Assembly (NCBI RefSeq): GCF_004116405.1 | Contig: NZ_SDIC01000002.1 | Coordinates: forward strand, 248,001-312,000 | Source of the DNA: Halegenticoccus tardaugens | GTDB taxonomy: Archaea; Halobacteriota; Halobacteria; Halobacteriales; Haloferacaceae | DNA: 64,000 nucleotides | Direction: 5' to 3' | Shown: positions 20,259-63,293 of the stretch, one piece after another | Layout of the letters: the number at the start of each line of letters is the position of its first letter | How positions within the stretch are numbered: the stretch's first letter is position 1 | Notes under the pieces: generated by a model | Seen by the model: only the letters and a program-made list of their open reading frames with translations | Told to the model about the DNA's origin: nothing | Database searches by the model: none | Translations under genes and position numbers: made by a program

Positions 20259-21164
20259 ATGAGAATTGTAAGCAAACTACGGGGGTTTAACGGTAGTGAT
20301 TTAGACATTATCCTCAAGAGGACGTTACGGAACTTGTTACGAGAACGGATTACCAAGTTCGCGTTCATTTGCTTGATTGTTATTTTCCTGATCGGACTCC
20401 TGGGGCCGGCGCTCGCGCCATATGATTATAATGAGCAGCAACTTACCGCAGACGGTCAACTGAACAGGTACGCCCCCCCATCGATTGATCACCCATTAGG
20501 TACAAACGATCGCGGTGAGGACGTCCTCTCACGGCTCCTCGTTGGGGCGCGGACTACCCTCATTACTGGACTACTTGCTGGGAGCCTGATGCTCATCCTT
20601 GGGTTGTCTATTGGCGTAACAGCAGGCTACGTTGGCGGACGAACAGAGAGTCTGTTGATGCGTTTCGTCGACTTCATGTATGGGATTCCGTTCATACCAT
20701 TCGCTATCGTCCTCATCACGTTCTTTGGCGCTGGTTTTTACACTACCATCGCTATCATTGGACTCGTCCTTTGGCGGTTCATCGCACGTGTGATACGCTC
20801 GCAGGTATTACAGATAAAACAACGGCCGTACATCATGGCGGCTAAGGCATCTGGAGCGAGTACACCGTGGATTATTCGAAAACATATTCTCCCAAATATA
20901 GCAAACATGGCAGCACTTTTTTTCGCCATGGGTGTTGGGCTAGCAATTCTTGAACAAGCGGGCTTGTCCTTCATCGGTGTTACTGATCCGTTCACGCCAA
21001 CCTGGGGAATAATGATTCGCAACGCCCATCAGTCGGGTCGCATTGCCGAAGCGTGGTGGTGGTCGTTTCCACCAGGGATCATGATTTCGCTGACCGTTCT
21101 GTCGCTGTACCTCCTTGGTCGAGGCTATGAAAGCGTCACTGGTGAGGACGAGGTGATCGTGTAA
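20259..21164 (+). CDS. Dpp/Opp-type ABC transporter permease (DppC-like)
   Basis: 301 residues with six hydrophobic segments. DppC/OppC marks: a cytoplasmic N terminus, first span near ITKFAFICLIVIFLIGLLG, then DHPLGTNDRGEDVLSRLLVG, and the EAA coupling motif AAKASGASTPWIIRKHILPN (about residues 195-214), with LSFIGVTDPFTPTWG after it. First gene of an operon permease C, ATPase D, ATPase F, permease B, binding protein; the usual order puts the binding protein first. Family imports peptides, nickel, or other solutes; with amidase and FAH neighbours a small amide or peptide-like compound is plausible. Confidence 0.9.
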   Translation: MRIVSKLRGFNGSDLDIILKRTLRNLLRERITKFAFICLIVIFLIGLLGPALAPYDYNEQQLTADGQLNRYAPPSIDHPLGTNDRGEDVLSRLLVGARTTLITGLLAGSLMLILGLSIGVTAGYVGGRTESLLMRFVDFMYGIPFIPFAIVLITFFGAGFYTTIAIIGLVLWRFIARVIRSQVLQIKQRPYIMAAKASGASTPWIIRKHILPNIANMAALFFAMGVGLAILEQAGLSFIGVTDPFTPTWGIMIRNAHQSGRIAEAWWWSFPPGIMISLTVLSLYLLGRGYESVTGEDEVIV

Positions 21165-21165
21165 T

Positions 21166-22209
21166 ATGTCTTCTCCGATACTGGAGATCGATGGAATTGA
21201 TATCGAGTACCAGACTCGAGGAGATACCGCCGTACACGCTGTCAACGATGCCTCGTTTGCAATCAATGAGCACGAGTACTTCGGACTCGTTGGCGAAAGT
21301 GGCTGTGGGAAGAGTACGATCGCAGATGCCATCGTCGGCGGCCTCGATGACAACGGCAAGATAACCTCAGGTAGCATTCGCTACAAAGGGAAGGAAATCC
21401 AGAATTATTCGGAGTCTCAATTCAACAAGGAGATTCGCTGGAAAGAAATTTCAGTCATTCCTCAGTCGTCGATGAACAGTCTCGATCCAGTCATGAAGCT
21501 GAGCCAGCAGGCCATCGAGATGGCGAAGTATCACACTGACCTCTCGAAGGGTGAGGCAATGGCTCGACTCCGAGAACTATTTGATGTCGTTGGGCTCTCC
21601 GAATCACGCATTCATGACTACCCTCACCAGTTCTCTGGCGGGATGCAACAGCGCGCCATCATTGCGTTCTCACTGTTCCTTCAACCCAGCCTCATCATTG
21701 CGGATGAACCGACGACAGCACTGGACGTCATCATGCAGGATCAAATTCTTGACCATATCAACAGTTTAAAAGACGATTGGGAGATCAGCATGCTGATGAT
21801 CACCCACGACATCTCCGTTGTCTTCGAAAATTGTGACACAATGGCGGTGATGCACGGTGGACAAGTTGCAGAGGCAGGAAGCGTGATAGACGTGTTCGAT
21901 CGCCCGCGACACCCGTACGCAATCTTGCTCCAGAATGCGTTTCCGGACGTTCGGTATCCTGACCGCGAGCTGGCAATCATCGACGGTCATCCACCTCAAC
22001 TGCGTCAAAAGCCTGAATTCTGCACGTTTGCAGACCGATGCCCGTGGGCGGTTTCTGAGTGTCACGACAGTGCTCCTGACCCTCAACGAGTCGAAGGGGA
22101 CGATGATCACCAGGCATGGTGTATCCGGGCCGATGAGATGGACGAACTGGCTGCAGAGCACCTTGAGAAGCCATCTGAGACAACGAGTATTCTGGAGGAC
22201 ACCAAATGA
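21166..22209 (+). CDS. Dpp/Opp-type ABC transporter ATP-binding protein (DppD-like)
   Basis: 347 residues. Walker A GESGCGKST (about residues 43-51), signature FSGGMQQR, Walker B SLIIADEPTTALD, H-loop MLMITHDIS. The C-terminal oligopeptide-family domain has the cysteine cluster CTFADRCPWAVSEC and a later C, as in DppD/OppD proteins, which may bind an Fe-S cluster. The ATG follows the permease stop by one base and the next ATPase overlaps its stop by four (ATGA), so the three are translated together. Confidence 0.92.
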   Translation: MSSPILEIDGIDIEYQTRGDTAVHAVNDASFAINEHEYFGLVGESGCGKSTIADAIVGGLDDNGKITSGSIRYKGKEIQNYSESQFNKEIRWKEISVIPQSSMNSLDPVMKLSQQAIEMAKYHTDLSKGEAMARLRELFDVVGLSESRIHDYPHQFSGGMQQRAIIAFSLFLQPSLIIADEPTTALDVIMQDQILDHINSLKDDWEISMLMITHDISVVFENCDTMAVMHGGQVAEAGSVIDVFDRPRHPYAILLQNAFPDVRYPDRELAIIDGHPPQLRQKPEFCTFADRCPWAVSECHDSAPDPQRVEGDDDHQAWCIRADEMDELAAEHLEKPSETTSILEDTK

Positions 22210-23237
22210 GCAACGATGTACCGGTTCTTGAGCTTCGAGCGTTAGAAAAACACTTCAGCGCTTCTTCGGGCCTGTACGATACGGTCAAACAGCACCTCAC
22301 TCGCGAGAAACCATCGTTCGTTCGGGCTGTCGATGGCGTCAATATGCGACTGGAAGAGAATCAAGTCCAAGGTGTCATTGGCGAGAGCGGCTGTGGAAAG
22401 ACCACGCTACTTCGGACGCTTATCGGTCTCTACAAGCCTACTGACGGGAAATTACTCTTTCACGGGGAGCCGGTATCAGAATTCACAAAAGAGGAGTGGA
22501 AGGAGTTCCGACGCCGCGTCCAGATAGTCTTTCAAGACCCATTTAACTCGCTGGATCCAAAATTCAGTGTCCGACGAACGCTGGCTGAGCCCCTCGAAAT
22601 TCACAATATTGACTACGATCGTGACCGCATTGAGGAAACGCTAGAGTCAGTAGGATTGACGCCGGCCGAGAAATACCTAAGCCGGTTCCCTAATCAGCTT
22701 TCCGGCGGTGAGAAACAGCGCGTCGCCATCGCACGCGGACTCATCACTGAACCGGATGTCATTCTCGCGGATGAGCCAGCGTCGATGCTTGACGTCTCAA
22801 CACAAGCGGAGATCCTAAACTTGCTGAACAGGCTGACCGACGAATTCGGTGTCTCAATGGTGTACATCTCTCACGATCTTTCAACGGTCTCATACATCTG
22901 CAATAAGATAAACGTGATGTACCTCGGTCGGATTGTCGAGGAGGCACCGACTAAGCAACTACTTTCGAATCCCAAACACCCCTACACGAAGGCACTCATT
23001 CAGTCTATTCCGATTCCAGATCCGCATTACGAACGCGAGCGAGCGGCCATCGGTGGCGAACCGGGTGATCCAATCAATATGCCAAACGGATGTCGGTTCA
23101 AAAACCGATGCCCCGAGCGAATGGGGGTGTGTGACTCTACCCCACACGATATTGAGTTAGCGGACTATGAGGATCACACGGTTGCCTGTCATCTGTACTA
23201 TGACCATGTAGCCCAGACAATGGGGAAGACACAATGA
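22206..23237 (+). CDS. Dpp/Opp-type ABC transporter ATP-binding protein (DppF-like)
   Basis: 343 residues. Walker A GESGCGKTT, Q-loop IVFQDPFNSLDPKF, signature LSGGEKQR, Walker B VILADEPASMLDVS, H-loop YISHDLS. The C-terminal tail carries NGCRFKNRCPERMGVC, the oligopeptide-family cysteine cluster. It begins with an ATGA overlap with the DppD-like gene. Together they form the heterodimeric ATPase of the importer. Confidence 0.92.
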   Translation: MSNDVPVLELRALEKHFSASSGLYDTVKQHLTREKPSFVRAVDGVNMRLEENQVQGVIGESGCGKTTLLRTLIGLYKPTDGKLLFHGEPVSEFTKEEWKEFRRRVQIVFQDPFNSLDPKFSVRRTLAEPLEIHNIDYDRDRIEETLESVGLTPAEKYLSRFPNQLSGGEKQRVAIARGLITEPDVILADEPASMLDVSTQAEILNLLNRLTDEFGVSMVYISHDLSTVSYICNKINVMYLGRIVEEAPTKQLLSNPKHPYTKALIQSIPIPDPHYERERAAIGGEPGDPINMPNGCRFKNRCPERMGVCDSTPHDIELADYEDHTVACHLYYDHVAQTMGKTQ

Positions 23238-24651: not shown

Positions 24652-26427
24652 ATGCCATCAAGTGGCAAACAGAGATCTGATCAGAATGCGAGCAGACGGC
24701 GAGTCTTGCAGACGGTTGGGGTGGCCTCGACTGCTGCGCTCGCAGGCTGTCTCGGGAATATGGGCGGTGGTGGTGGTGATTTGGGTGAACGAGTCCCAAC
24801 ATTAACGTTCCAGTATTGGTCCGATCAAGGCCCGCCGACAGTGCTGTTTGAGGAAACCATCTCGAATATCCGGACCGCTACCGACGAATTGGGTATTCAG
24901 ATCGAAACGATGCCGATGACCACAGCCGAGGGGTTGGACGCAGTCGCGAACGATACGCGCGGCTTTCACATCGCGGTAAACAGCCACGGACCCTCTCCAG
25001 GGAGACTTGACCCAAACGAACTCTTAACCAATTACAGTATCGACTTTGCAGGCGCCAACGGCGACTATAATCCGACCAACTATGCAAGTTGCGAGTTCTC
25101 TAAATTCGCTGCACAACAGGCAAACGCTGGTGATTCTGCCAAGCGGCGTGAAGTGGTTGGTGAGGCAATGCGCGTCTTTTCAAAGGACCTCGCCTTTATC
25201 CCGACCATTGAACGGCCAACGACGGCCGCCATCAACACTAGCCAACTCCAGTCCATTGAAGCCGGCTCAGCCGGACTGACCGACACCCATTGGTCTGCAC
25301 TCGTCGAGGCCGGAGTGAGCGCACAGAGTGGTACGGACAGCCTGGTCGCTAACCTGCCGTCAGAGCATCTGACGAGTAGCTTCTACCCGACCGTCGCTGA
25401 CGGAGACTCCATGGGGTTGTACACGAGTTTAACACACTCGCCTCTACTTATGTACGACTCGAACTACGAACTGACGCCTGTCCTCGCAGAGGATTGGGAA
25501 ACGTCTGCCGACGGGACATCAACGACATTTAACCTCCGTGAGGCAACCTTCCACAATGGCGATCCGGTTACACCCGAAGATATCAAGTGGACCTACGAGT
25601 TCCTGAGCGAGCAGTATCACGGCGGTAATTACCAGTGGACCAATCTCCCAGAGGATCTCACTGTCGAAGTCATTGACGAGAGCACCGTCAGCTTCAACAC
25701 CGAAAGCCCTGCACCGACGCTCCTTACGGCAAGTCTCTCAATTTATGGCGTCCTCCCTCAGGGCCCCTACGTTGATGCCGGTATCGAGGATAATCCGACC
25801 GATTTCGACGATCCGATGATCGGTGCAGGACCCTACCGAATTGCGGCCTACAACAACCAAGAGAACATGCAGCTCGAACCACATACTGGCCATCCGATCT
25901 ACGAATCTGATACACAGATCTTGCTACAGTTGTACGACAGTACGGATGGCGTGGTACGTGCGTTCCAAAATGAGGAACTGAACGTCGCGGTTTCACTACA
26001 TCCTGAGGCTGGCCAACAACTGCAAAAGTCGATGGGCGATAACGTTCAGATCATCACTGGTGTGGCCCATCTCCCGTTCGGAGTCATGCCCCAGATGTCG
26101 TTCGCACCGGGTATGTTTCCTGAATTCCGTCAAGCACTCTCGCATATGATCGACCGACAGACCCTGAACGCGACATATGCATTCGGTGAGTCTCAGGTCG
26201 TAACTCATGCTACGTTCAATTCTCAAGAACATCCATGGTATAACGAAGAGGTTCTCACCCAAATTGCGGGTGAGAGAGCAGACGTTGACCAAGCAAAACA
26301 AGTTCTTGAGGATGCCGGCTGGGGATGGGATAATAGCGGTAATCTTCACTACCCTCAGGATGCGAGCATGGAAGCTTGGCCACAAGGCGAAGGGCCTCGT
26401 TCTGAGGACTTCCCTTGTCTCGGATGA
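24652..26427 (+). CDS. Peptide-type ABC substrate-binding lipoprotein, circularly permuted SBP_bac_5 fold
   Basis: 591 residues. Twin-arginine signal SRRRVLQTVGVASTAALAGC with lipobox Cys33, so a Tat-exported lipoprotein. Order of parts is unusual. Residues about 50-200 (TLTFQYWSDQGPP, ISNIRTATDELGIQIE, GDYNPTNYASCEF, KRREVVGEAMRVFSKDLAFI) match the segment that ends a normal SBP_bac_5 protein. Only at about 229 does the normal N-terminal part begin (YTSLTHSPLLMYDSN, HNGDPVTPEDIKWTYEF at 301-317). The chain ends near VDQAKQVLEDAGWGWDNSG, normally followed by about 200 more residues. Thus a circular permutation with all parts present once. Last gene of the importer operon, after a promoter-like CCTTTTTGTAATC. 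Confidence 0.88.
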   Translation: MPSSGKQRSDQNASRRRVLQTVGVASTAALAGCLGNMGGGGGDLGERVPTLTFQYWSDQGPPTVLFEETISNIRTATDELGIQIETMPMTTAEGLDAVANDTRGFHIAVNSHGPSPGRLDPNELLTNYSIDFAGANGDYNPTNYASCEFSKFAAQQANAGDSAKRREVVGEAMRVFSKDLAFIPTIERPTTAAINTSQLQSIEAGSAGLTDTHWSALVEAGVSAQSGTDSLVANLPSEHLTSSFYPTVADGDSMGLYTSLTHSPLLMYDSNYELTPVLAEDWETSADGTSTTFNLREATFHNGDPVTPEDIKWTYEFLSEQYHGGNYQWTNLPEDLTVEVIDESTVSFNTESPAPTLLTASLSIYGVLPQGPYVDAGIEDNPTDFDDPMIGAGPYRIAAYNNQENMQLEPHTGHPIYESDTQILLQLYDSTDGVVRAFQNEELNVAVSLHPEAGQQLQKSMGDNVQIITGVAHLPFGVMPQMSFAPGMFPEFRQALSHMIDRQTLNATYAFGESQVVTHATFNSQEHPWYNEEVLTQIAGERADVDQAKQVLEDAGWGWDNSGNLHYPQDASMEAWPQGEGPRSEDFPCLG

Positions 26428-60020: not shown

Positions 60021-61418
60021 CTACAGCTCGTTCTCCCAAGGCCAGTCTTTCGCTTCCCCCCACGGCCACGACTCTGTCGCCTTCATCCCAACGTCGAATC
60101 CCTCTTCCACACAGTTTTGCCTTATCTCCTCAGCGTCGACGTGACTGACTTCAACATCGCGCTGGGCGAGTCGCGCGATGCCTGCGGCGCAGAGAATCGA
60201 CAGATCGCGCAGGTCGCGCACGTCAAGTTTGTCGAGTGTATCGCCATGAGTGTGGCCCCACCCGCGCCCGCTTTCGTCTGAGGAAGATCGTCCTTGGACG
60301 CCCGCGACGCCACGCTGGACGAACGGCCAGTGATCGCTATTTGGTTGGATCTGGTCTTCGGTGGTAATGGGAATTCCGTACTCCTCGCTGACAGTGTTGA
60401 ATACGTCGGCTATCGTTTCGAAGCCGTGACTGTGGATTTCGAGGTTCCGAGAGTAGCCTGCGCCGTCGATATTGACGATGCATTTCACATTGTGTAAGTC
60501 GTGGGTGTGGGTCCAGTAATACGACCCGTACAGGCCGGTTTCCTCGGCCCCGAAGACGACCAGGCGAACTTTCGTTTCCAACTCGTCTGCGACCCGCACC
60601 AGCATCTTCCCGACTTCGATGACCATGGCAGTCCCGAACCCGTTGTCGTTGGCGGCCGTCCCTACGTCATGTCCGTCCACGTGCGCCGTGAACAGCACTT
60701 CTTCGTCTGTGTCGGGACCAACGGTCCCCTCGACGTTGTGCGAGGTGCCGCGGCCAACCTCCGACATGACTGACAGGGTTGCCTCAACAGCGTCGTCATC
60801 GCAGTAACGCTGGAGTCGTGCGCCGATTTCTTTGCTCGTACCAATAGCCGGAATCGGCCCCGGTCCGTTCACGGCCCCGACGTTTCCTGTCGGTGGAAGT
60901 GCACCTTCGACGTGGTTGTAGAAAACGAACGCCGCGGCACCGGATTCAGCGGCGTAACGGTATTTTTCCGACCGGTGGACCCACCGACCGTAGTCGTCGG
61001 GGGTGAGACTGGACGCCATCGCAATGTCTCCCGAGAGGTCTACGGTCTCGAAGTCTTGGGGGAGACCGTATCCCATATCCACGAGTTTACCCGTCACCTC
61101 GCCCGATGGCGTCCCTGGCAACTCGACAAGTTCGTGCGACTGATCGAACGTTGTCTCTCGGTCGCCGTGAGCCACGGTGAGGCTAGCGTCGCCGCGCCAC
61201 CAGGCTGGTATCGGAAACGCGTCCAACGAAACGTTGTCCAGCCCGATTGCCTCGAACGTCTTGGACACTCGGTCCGCACCGAGTCTTTCGCCCTCGTGAC
61301 CCGGCATTCGGTCGTTTAGGTCCTCCAACTCGGTCAGGAGTTCCCATCCGACCGTACTTCGGTAGGCGTTTCCCACGACCTCGTCTGGTAGTTTGGTCAT
61401 CGACATGTAGTGTGACAT
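60021..61418 (-). CDS. M28 family metallopeptidase with PA-like insert
   Basis: 465 residues. M28 zinc site: FTAHVDGHDVGTAANDNGFG (His, Asp), VVFGAEETGLYGSYYWTH (Glu pair), NIDGAGYSRNL (Asp), and GWGHTHGDTLDKLD (His). Residues about 100-210 (GEVTGKLVDMGYGLPQDFET, SGAAAFVFYNHVEGALPP) resemble a PA domain. No signal peptide, so cytoplasmic aminopeptidase or amidohydrolase. A TATA-like CCATAAATAGG (minus, about 61437-61447) lies about 20-30 bases before the ATG at 61418, a leaderless start. The next gene is a peptide-type importer, so it may hydrolyse imported peptides. Confidence 0.88.
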   Translation of the reverse strand: MSHYMSMTKLPDEVVGNAYRSTVGWELLTELEDLNDRMPGHEGERLGADRVSKTFEAIGLDNVSLDAFPIPAWWRGDASLTVAHGDRETTFDQSHELVELPGTPSGEVTGKLVDMGYGLPQDFETVDLSGDIAMASSLTPDDYGRWVHRSEKYRYAAESGAAAFVFYNHVEGALPPTGNVGAVNGPGPIPAIGTSKEIGARLQRYCDDDAVEATLSVMSEVGRGTSHNVEGTVGPDTDEEVLFTAHVDGHDVGTAANDNGFGTAMVIEVGKMLVRVADELETKVRLVVFGAEETGLYGSYYWTHTHDLHNVKCIVNIDGAGYSRNLEIHSHGFETIADVFNTVSEEYGIPITTEDQIQPNSDHWPFVQRGVAGVQGRSSSDESGRGWGHTHGDTLDKLDVRDLRDLSILCAAGIARLAQRDVEVSHVDAEEIRQNCVEEGFDVGMKATESWPWGEAKDWPWENEL

Positions 61419-61604: not shown

Positions 61605-63293
61605 ATGAGAGATGATAACACCCAAATGAAACGTCGCCGCTTTCTGAAAGCGACGACAGCGGGTGGAATCGTAGGTATGACGGCCTTGGCCGGTTGTTCA
61701 GATCAAGGCGGCGATGGGGCCGGTGGAGATAATACGGGCGGTGGCGCCAACAATAGTGGTCCAGGTTCAGGTCTTTCTACGTATACGTACGTGAACAATG
61801 CACAGAGCTACAACCCACCTAGACACGACGCGATCAATCTCATCGCGGACCAATTAAACAAGCTCGGGCTGGACGTGGAAGTCGACGTGCTCGAATGGGG
61901 CACGTTGTACAGTCGAGTGTCTGAAGAGTATAACTACAGCTTCGCGACGTGGCACACGTTTTTCGTTTCTGAACCGGTGATGGAGTTGAACAACCTGTTT
62001 AATTCCGAGAACACGGGGGCGGGTCAGGGTAACTATTCCGGCTACGAAAACCCCGAACTCGACAAGATGATGGCGAACTACCTGGCCGAACCGAATAGCG
62101 ATACCCGAGTTGAGCTGGCTCACAAGATTCAGCGGACGCTGATGGACGACGTGCCGACAATGCCCATCACGCAGATGCCACAGGCGGCCATCTACAATAA
62201 GAATCAGGTTGGAAATTGGGAGGCGGATCTTGCGAACGGGTTCAACTCCTATTGGACCATGATAAACCTCGAGATGAAGGGCGGCGAGGACACCCTGAAG
62301 GGCTATTGGCCAGAGACACTGTCGACGATGAACGTACTGGGCCACAACGACGAGAGCAAGCACGTCTACCAGTTCAACGTGATGTACGACTTCTTGGTCC
62401 AAATTAACAATAATGCTGAACCTGACCCCGAGGTCAGCCTCGCCACGGATTGGAACCGAGTCGACGAAACCACGATGGAATACACCATCCGAACCGACCA
62501 CTCATGGCATGACGGTGAGAATCTCACCGCCGAGGACGTAGCGTTCACATACAACTATATCAACGAGAATGAGGTGCCCCTGTACTCTACGCAGTCGGAG
62601 TATATCGACAATGCCGAAGTGATCGACGAGGAGACGGTTCGAATCAATATGTCTGAGCCGCTTGGTCCGTTCAATCTCGCAGTCGCGAATCTCATCCCCA
62701 TTATTCCCGAGCATATGTGGGCTGACCGCAATAATCCGAGCCAGGCGAACATTCAAGAGCCGGTCGGTAGCGGTCCAATGATGTTCGACTACTGGGAGCA
62801 GGGAAGCGAATTTGGATTATCGAAGTTCACCGAGCACTTCGCGCCCGTCGATTTCGAAAAGCGGTTCTGGCGCGTTATCCCCGAGGCGTCCACGGTATGG
62901 GAAAACCTGATCAACGGCGACCTCAACTACGAACCGTTCGGTCGCATCGACCGTAGCCTCGATCAAAATCAAAACAACGAGAACATCGGTACGACGTTTC
63001 AGACCGCTCCAACGTTCTGGATGTTCACTCCCAACGAGCGCGAAAAGGGCCTCGGCGACAAGCAGCTTCGGAAGGCGATGGTCGAGACGATTCCGCGGAC
63101 GCCCATCGTCAAGCAAATTCTATTCGGCCTCCCAGATCCCGGGTTCAACATCGTCTCATCAGCGTTCGGTTCGCTCCACACGGAGGACGTGCCCACGTAC
63201 AAGGAGAGCCGAGAGGCAGCTCGGAACCGACTCAAAGAGGCTGGCTACACGTGGAACGACGATGGCATGCTCCAAGCGCCAAGCAACGACTGA
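61605..63293 (+). CDS. Peptide-type ABC substrate-binding lipoprotein, circularly permuted SBP_bac_5 fold
   Basis: 562 residues. Tat signal KRRRFLKATTAGG, lipobox LAGC (Cys31), Gly/Asn linker to about 55. Residues 58-215 (DAINLIADQLNKLGLDVEVD, LEWGTLYSRVSEEYNYSF, NYSGYENPELDKMMANYL, DTRVELAHKIQRTLMDDVP) correspond to the last about 200 residues of ordinary DppA-type proteins. From about 250 the ordinary beginning follows: VYQFNVMYDFLVQI, WHDGENLTAEDVAFTYNYI (301-319), VGSGPMMFDYWEQG. The protein stops at REAARNRLKEAGYTWNDDG, where a normal member would continue with the segment found here at the front. First gene of an importer; the permease follows. Confidence 0.9.
   Translation: MRDDNTQMKRRRFLKATTAGGIVGMTALAGCSDQGGDGAGGDNTGGGANNSGPGSGLSTYTYVNNAQSYNPPRHDAINLIADQLNKLGLDVEVDVLEWGTLYSRVSEEYNYSFATWHTFFVSEPVMELNNLFNSENTGAGQGNYSGYENPELDKMMANYLAEPNSDTRVELAHKIQRTLMDDVPTMPITQMPQAAIYNKNQVGNWEADLANGFNSYWTMINLEMKGGEDTLKGYWPETLSTMNVLGHNDESKHVYQFNVMYDFLVQINNNAEPDPEVSLATDWNRVDETTMEYTIRTDHSWHDGENLTAEDVAFTYNYINENEVPLYSTQSEYIDNAEVIDEETVRINMSEPLGPFNLAVANLIPIIPEHMWADRNNPSQANIQEPVGSGPMMFDYWEQGSEFGLSKFTEHFAPVDFEKRFWRVIPEASTVWENLINGDLNYEPFGRIDRSLDQNQNNENIGTTFQTAPTFWMFTPNEREKGLGDKQLRKAMVETIPRTPIVKQILFGLPDPGFNIVSSAFGSLHTEDVPTYKESREAARNRLKEAGYTWNDDGMLQAPSND

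Follow-up and report, generated by a model that had tools for sequence, protein, structure and literature searches.

Natural circular permutation of the binding protein of an ABC importer has been described for TpMglB-2 (Tp0684) of Treponema pallidum, which belongs to a conserved subfamily referred to as Type Ic or cluster Bc (PMC4990184). In the binding proteins of cluster C, the two hinge strands enclose lobe II as an uninterrupted segment, which comprises residues 303-530 in EppA (PMC7312458) and 297-582 in AliD (PMC11192437). AliC forms a lobe-swapped dimer (PMC11192437), and in E. coli, a scoop motif of the permease DppB is touched by both lobes of DppA (PMC12136057). In the open-access literature, a search for permuted SBP_5 or peptide-binding proteins yielded just TpMglB-2 and engineered sensors.

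The protein described here, P0001, is encoded in a stretch of 64,000 nucleotides of the Halegenticoccus tardaugens genome, which was analyzed as a whole and is referred to as the window (Table 1). With a probability of about 93%, P0001 is a genuine cluster C (SBP_bac_5) protein, the gene of which was circularly permuted in an ancestor, and most likely it is an ordinary Venus-flytrap receptor for the adjacent importer. The circular permutation, already proposed in the original prediction, is borne out by sequence profiles, by the model coordinates of Pfam matches and by a confident structural model of the whole mature chain, and it is kept in two domains of life.

Table 1. Features of the P0001 locus and of the second permuted copy, in coordinates of the window.
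Feature	Coordinates	Strand	Basis
DppC-type permease	20259..21164	+	Orthologue annotated as ABC transporter permease, same gene order
DppD-type ATPase	21166..22209	+	Gene order and annotation of orthologous operons
DppF-type ATPase	22206..23237	+	Gene order and annotation of orthologous operons
DppB-type permease, directly upstream of P0001	23377..24378	+	Gene order and annotation of orthologous operons
P0001, circularly permuted SBP_bac_5 substrate-binding lipoprotein	24652..26427	+	Single intact ORF, ATG at 24652 to stop at 26427, 591 aa
P0001 residues 1-33, twin-arginine-type signal and lipobox LAGC	24652..24750	+	Read from sequence
P0001 residues 48-205, canonical C-terminal part (lobe II, second half, and the return crossover to lobe I)	24793..25266	+	Profile and Foldseek
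P0001 residues 206-228, junction of old C-terminus to old N-terminus	25267..25335	+	Position between both matched halves
P0001 residues 229-575, canonical N-terminal and middle part (lobe I with its domains I and II, a crossover and the first half of lobe II)	25336..26376	+	Pfam SBP_bac_5, phmmer
P0001 short C-terminal tail and stop	26377..26427	+	Sequence
Divergent M28 peptidase with PA domain, adjoining second copy	60021..61418	-	Pfam Peptidase_M28, E 3.9e-32
Second permuted SBP_bac_5 copy, 562 aa, break point as in P0001	61605..63293	+	Pfam, two stretches

Rotated order of the chain

As noted earlier, P0001 is encoded in one intact frame with an export signal. The lipobox with its RR motif reads RRRVLQTVGVASTAALAGC, and both RR and AGC are invariant across 33 relatives of the protein. 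The hallmark of the canonical beginning, HNGDPVTPEDIKWTYEF, indeed starts at residue 301. The motif LEDAGWGWDNSG, at which the chain had been thought to end, is present as well, but it is followed by another 28 residues (...NLHYPQDASMEAWPQGEGPRSEDFPCLG), which is a minor correction.

The C-terminal part of P0001 was matched directly. Residues 273-564 correspond to positions 1-285 of the 368 positions of the Pfam SBP_bac_5 model (152.5 bits, with a curated cut-off of 32.4), and the final ~83 positions of the model are missing from the C-terminus of the protein. In a phmmer search, residues 229-575 matched residues 58-347 of 5isu, besides other proteins. When the first 215 residues were searched alone, as had been suggested to verify the permutation, no informative match was found in Pfam or NCBIfam. 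As this half is invisible to a direct Pfam search, a profile is needed for its detection. Such a profile, A2, was built from the N-terminal parts (residues 47-228) of 33 orthologous and paralogous permuted relatives. Its matches in the PDB at E<=0.01 comprise 53 distinct sequences, every one of the SBP_5 type by name, and they are located in the last ~150 residues of the canonical proteins, i.e., residues 366-499 of DppE (the best match, E 1.8e-14), 353-487 of DppA, 369-503 of OppA_Bs and 347-473 of Lmo0135. The sole match outside the canonical C-terminal position is to a construct of 229 amino acids.

The lack of a Pfam match for the N-terminal half of P0001 alone could also be explained if a canonical binding protein had been truncated and the N-terminal ~180 residues came from the fusion of an unrelated domain. 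However, the profile of the 33 N-terminal halves matches the canonical C-terminus, and three of these 33 halves even match SBP_bac_5 as single sequences, with further matches to SapA/OppA/Opp4A models. Moreover, there are relatives in which Pfam matches both parts, in the rotated order, and a Foldseek search with the N-terminal segment alone retrieves SBP_5 proteins. A fusion with an unrelated domain is refuted by the profile match to canonical C-termini and is hardly conceivable any longer.

All parts of the fold, i.e., the start, the middle and the C-terminal part, are present once in P0001, and leftover or duplicated pieces of a binding protein were found neither upstream nor downstream of the gene. 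Their equivalents in the canonical proteins adjoin without overlap, as the C-terminal part of the permuted protein covers Lmo0135 up to residue 347 and the N-terminal part residues 347-473. Thus, the matches obtained with Pfam and A2 agree with the earlier proposal of single parts in rotated order. The canonical order, in which lobe I is followed by a contiguous lobe II and a return to lobe I, is rotated in P0001. The homology places P0001 in the SBP_bac_5 superfamily, and the rotated order makes it a variant subclass.

Predicted structure and position of the break

An AlphaFold2 model of P0001, based on 33 sequences, has a pLDDT of 87.3 and a pTM of 0.85; values below 50 are confined to residues 1-41. 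All 50 PDB matches listed by Foldseek for the full model are of the SBP_5 type. They cover 241-389 columns with TM values of 0.30-0.53 overall and of 0.35-0.53 when normalized by target; such partial alignments and low TM values are expected when a sequential aligner is applied to a rotated chain. The N-terminal segment folded alone (pLDDT 76) also matched SBP_5 proteins in all 50 cases listed, over 120-147 columns. A permuted or full-length solved counterpart was not found among the PDB matches listed.

By profile mapping, the C-terminal part of P0001 extends to residue 340 of mature DppA and the N-terminal part starts from residue 353; in Lmo0135/5isu, the break is at ~347. We take lobe II of DppA to comprise residues 261-478 approximately. 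Since the break positions fall within the contiguous lobe II of cluster C, the chain is probably opened inside this lobe (domain III), between residues ~340 and 353 of DppA, and the hinge is left uncut. Both inter-lobe crossovers appear to be retained, as strands at residues ~189-195 and ~476-480 of the P0001 model. The original prediction had located both new ends at the hinge between the lobes, and this part of it is not supported. It had also proposed that the lipid-anchored domain faces the permease differently. With the ends inside lobe II, the lipid anchor would be moved to this lobe. Lobe I would then be a contiguous insert in the middle of the chain and lobe II would be built from the two chain ends, which mirrors the nesting in canonical proteins. 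In the proposed course of events, the old C- and N-termini were fused directly through a short linker, and lobe II was opened to give new termini, at a site flanked by the helix ending '(A/L)xxLLxEAGWxW' plus its turn on one side and by the next strand on the other. In 126 permuted open reading frames, the median gap between the halves is 30 amino acids, and the frames stop at a median of 8 residues past the matched half.

P0001 would be exported and lipid-anchored through lobe II, and this location of the anchor could itself be the reason for the permutation, if tethering there leaves lobe I free or makes the cleft face the permease. The same idea has been put forward for TpMglB-2 (PMC4990184), and lipobox-like motifs are found in haloarchaeal and several Gram-positive members of the permuted group. 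However, many proteobacterial members have a Sec-type signal and no lipobox (e.g., L073, L079, L096, and L113), and canonical lipoproteins of the family coexist in the same genome. Because of the many members that lack a lipobox, anchoring is ruled out as a general explanation, and an adaptation of this kind is improbable. The default assumption is that the permutation was neutral, became fixed early and was spread by transfer.

Permuted copies in other genomes and their origin

Five of the twelve SBP_bac_5 proteins of H. tardaugens are permuted, i.e., P0001, the product of 61605-63293 and those encoded at C7:405k, C8:589k and C9:533k, while the remaining seven have the canonical order, with Pfam matches that reach the end of the model. 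In the second copy in the window (contig C7), positions 288-365 of the model are matched at 309782, and the match to positions 5-288 is located further downstream on this strand, at 310436. The gene is followed by relatives of DppB, DppC, DppD and DppF. Pfam likewise reveals the rotated order in the C9 protein, and in further permuted proteins, stretches 287-366 of the model precede stretches 1-288. The C9 protein (L164; L220:6790-8610, minus strand) is the fifth, very divergent permuted copy and has its own DppBCDF set.

Genes for M28 peptidases, such as the one adjoining the second copy, also flank permuted binding-protein genes in haloarchaea and in alphaproteobacteria (L074, L075, and L076, the latter with a split binding-protein frame). 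With one query, an M28 neighbor was found in 6 of 47 permuted loci vs. none of 24 canonical loci.

Orthologues of P0001 with the same order and 66-85% identity are present in further genera of the host's family, and permuted relatives were found throughout the haloarchaea sampled, in dozens of them. Four other genomes of the same phylum, outside the order of the P0001 host, carry a permuted protein too, and the assembly of a Desulfurococcaceae archaeon adds the Thermoproteota, according to its taxon label. Bacterial carriers span about seven phyla. The rotated order was encountered on alphaproteobacterial plasmids (Nitratireductor, Ketogulonicigenium, Roseomonas, and Maritalea), in isolates of Aliihoeflea, Martelella, Brevibacillus reuszeri, Anoxynatronum and Dethiosulfatibacter as well as many haloarchaea, and in metagenome bins labeled as Deinococcota, Atribacterota, Actinomycetota, Thermodesulfobacteriota and Chloroflexota. 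A scan of contigs with a mixed alignment scored 54 frames as permuted and 33 as canonical; in the loci fetched, 129 frames were permuted and 64 canonical, some of them being counted twice.

The host assembly consists of 14 contigs with an estimated contamination of 7.9%, and a rearranged or partly duplicated gene could in principle result from an error in sequencing, assembly or gene calling. Yet, the same order is found in the orthologues in other genomes and on complete plasmids of several haloarchaea and alphaproteobacteria, and leftover fragments around the P0001 gene were not found. An artefact is refuted by these independent genomes, and its probability is practically nil.

The permuted protein of Desulfurococcaceae archaeon AG1 (L195:778-2556, plus strand) has a long Thr/Pro-rich C-terminal tail past the end of lobe II, which suggests a C-terminal anchor.

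In a quick tree built from 83 rotated sequences, one group (SH-aLRT 93) contains all but two of the 34 permuted rows, i.e., 32. The two others, L164 and L195, i.e., the C9 copy of H. tardaugens and the AG1 protein, fall among canonical rows, which would fit with an origin of the permuted copies in several separate events at one site. So would the separate permutation, with another break, that was found in Dethiosulfatibacter (see below). On the other hand, a single clade for all permuted rows was not rejected (p-AU 0.294), and the junction of P0001 is alignable from archaea to bacteria, which favors one origin for the main permuted group. Several events at this one site are therefore possible but rather doubtful.

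A protein of Dethiosulfatibacter aminovorans (L201:1468-3162, minus strand) has 564 residues, a lipobox, and Pfam positions 209-327 before 4-196. It begins at NPLSDVRVRQAIAYAID, and a permease-like (DppB-like) frame is located downstream. As judged from its sequence, the chain is opened just at the crossover from lobe I to lobe II, unlike in the main group. When plasmids and 199 related genomes were searched for relatives with this permutation, the best matches outside the D. aminovorans genome looked canonical. Since the break differs, the cluster C fold has been permuted at least twice independently. We lean slightly toward a broader reading, in which the cluster C fold was permuted repeatedly, with at least two breaks, and horizontal transfer carried the old permutation in lobe II across archaea and bacteria, giving a major overlooked subclass, 'cluster Cc', which has its own ligand motif, PxRLDP, and is often linked with amide- or peptide-degrading enzymes.

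Operon context and relation to described binding proteins

The gene order around P0001, i.e., fumarylacetoacetate hydrolase, thioredoxin-like protein, permease, two ATPases, permease and binding protein, recurs in Halobaculum and Haloprofundus. In Halorussus, the ABC part is retained, with fumarylacetoacetate-hydrolase and amidase genes close by. Relatives of DppB and of DppC were each found in 37 of 47 permuted loci, as compared with 22 and 18, respectively, of 24 canonical loci. P0001 would bind a small solute and pass it to the DppBCDF-type importer encoded upstream. Its function is most likely the ordinary capture of a ligand for a Dpp/Opp-type importer, in which the mode of capture and docking would follow that of the canonical proteins. 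The contact of DppA with the DppB scoop motif, as discussed above, would not need any particular chain order.

The operon region of P0001 also contains amidase, fumarylacetoacetate-hydrolase, RraA-aldolase and aldehyde-dehydrogenase genes, besides a thioredoxin gene. Because of the four enzymes mentioned first, the solute is probably an amide or a carboxylate that is catabolized. In addition, a PxRLDP motif is located at residues 116-121 of P0001 (window 24997-25014), and its Arg is found in 95 of 126 permuted but only in 4 of 64 canonical frames. The loop that carries this Arg precedes the conserved DP and corresponds to a ligand-contacting region in canonical proteins, and the Arg may mark a different ligand.

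For one permuted type of H. tardaugens (L006/L221), a Dpp permease was not detected nearby. Similarly, tandem permuted binding proteins of the L006/L221 type are found in Natrinema (L125, L127, L133, L140, L141, and L157), with no Dpp permease detected nearby. Such cases would be compatible with P0001 being mainly a receptor or sensor instead of a transporter component. However, both copies in the window and most permuted relatives are encoded within Dpp/Opp operons, and a role mainly in sensing is very unlikely for P0001. Ligand capture for the importer is the preferred function.

SBP_bac_5 is among the largest families of nutrient receptors. Within it, the permuted subclass is masked by the label 'ABC transporter substrate-binding protein', and the break of the model at ~287 makes the Pfam matches of its members appear truncated. 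Caution is required with order-dependent annotation and trees of SBP_bac_5, since they mix two architectures. The permuted members represent a natural experiment, from which one may learn which connections of the chain a Venus-flytrap receptor and its permease depend on, and whether it matters to them which lobe is anchored. They are also natural scaffolds for the design of biosensors. The original prediction knew of no described family with this order, and this holds for the open-access literature and for the PDB matches listed, with TpMglB-2 as a precedent in cluster B (PMC4990184). Thus, a permuted subfamily of cluster C, widespread in archaea and bacteria, is apparently undescribed.

TpMglB-2 and P0001 are alike in that both are naturally permuted substrate-binding proteins conserved as a subfamily. 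TpMglB-2 has the sugar-binding fold of cluster B. Its C-terminus is formed by what was the first part of the N lobe, and it contains a large insertion and, as an extra, a fourth crossover. In contrast, P0001 belongs to cluster C, its break is presumably located in lobe II, and the extra crossover appears to be absent; only SBP_bac_5 was matched in Pfam and SBP_5 proteins among the Foldseek matches listed, and not the MglB-like fold of cluster B. AliC is a cluster C protein like P0001, and its lobes swap partners about the crossover, which indicates that the connections tolerate rewiring. However, this is domain swapping between chains, and the chain order is unchanged. The D. aminovorans protein resembles P0001 as a rotated, lipoprotein-like SBP_bac_5 protein encoded beside a DppB-like gene, but its break is at the crossover from lobe I to lobe II and the nearest relatives found are canonical. 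The canonical cluster C proteins, i.e., DppA, OppA, NikA, AppA and Lmo0135/CtaP, are homologous to P0001 in both halves, are exported, have the same predicted type of fold and are likewise encoded with DppB/C permeases and DppD/F ATPases. The permuted proteins differ from them in carrying the C-terminal ~150 residues first, in the contiguity of lobe I, in the predicted location of the termini and the anchor on lobe II and, in most members, in the presence of the PxRLDP motif.
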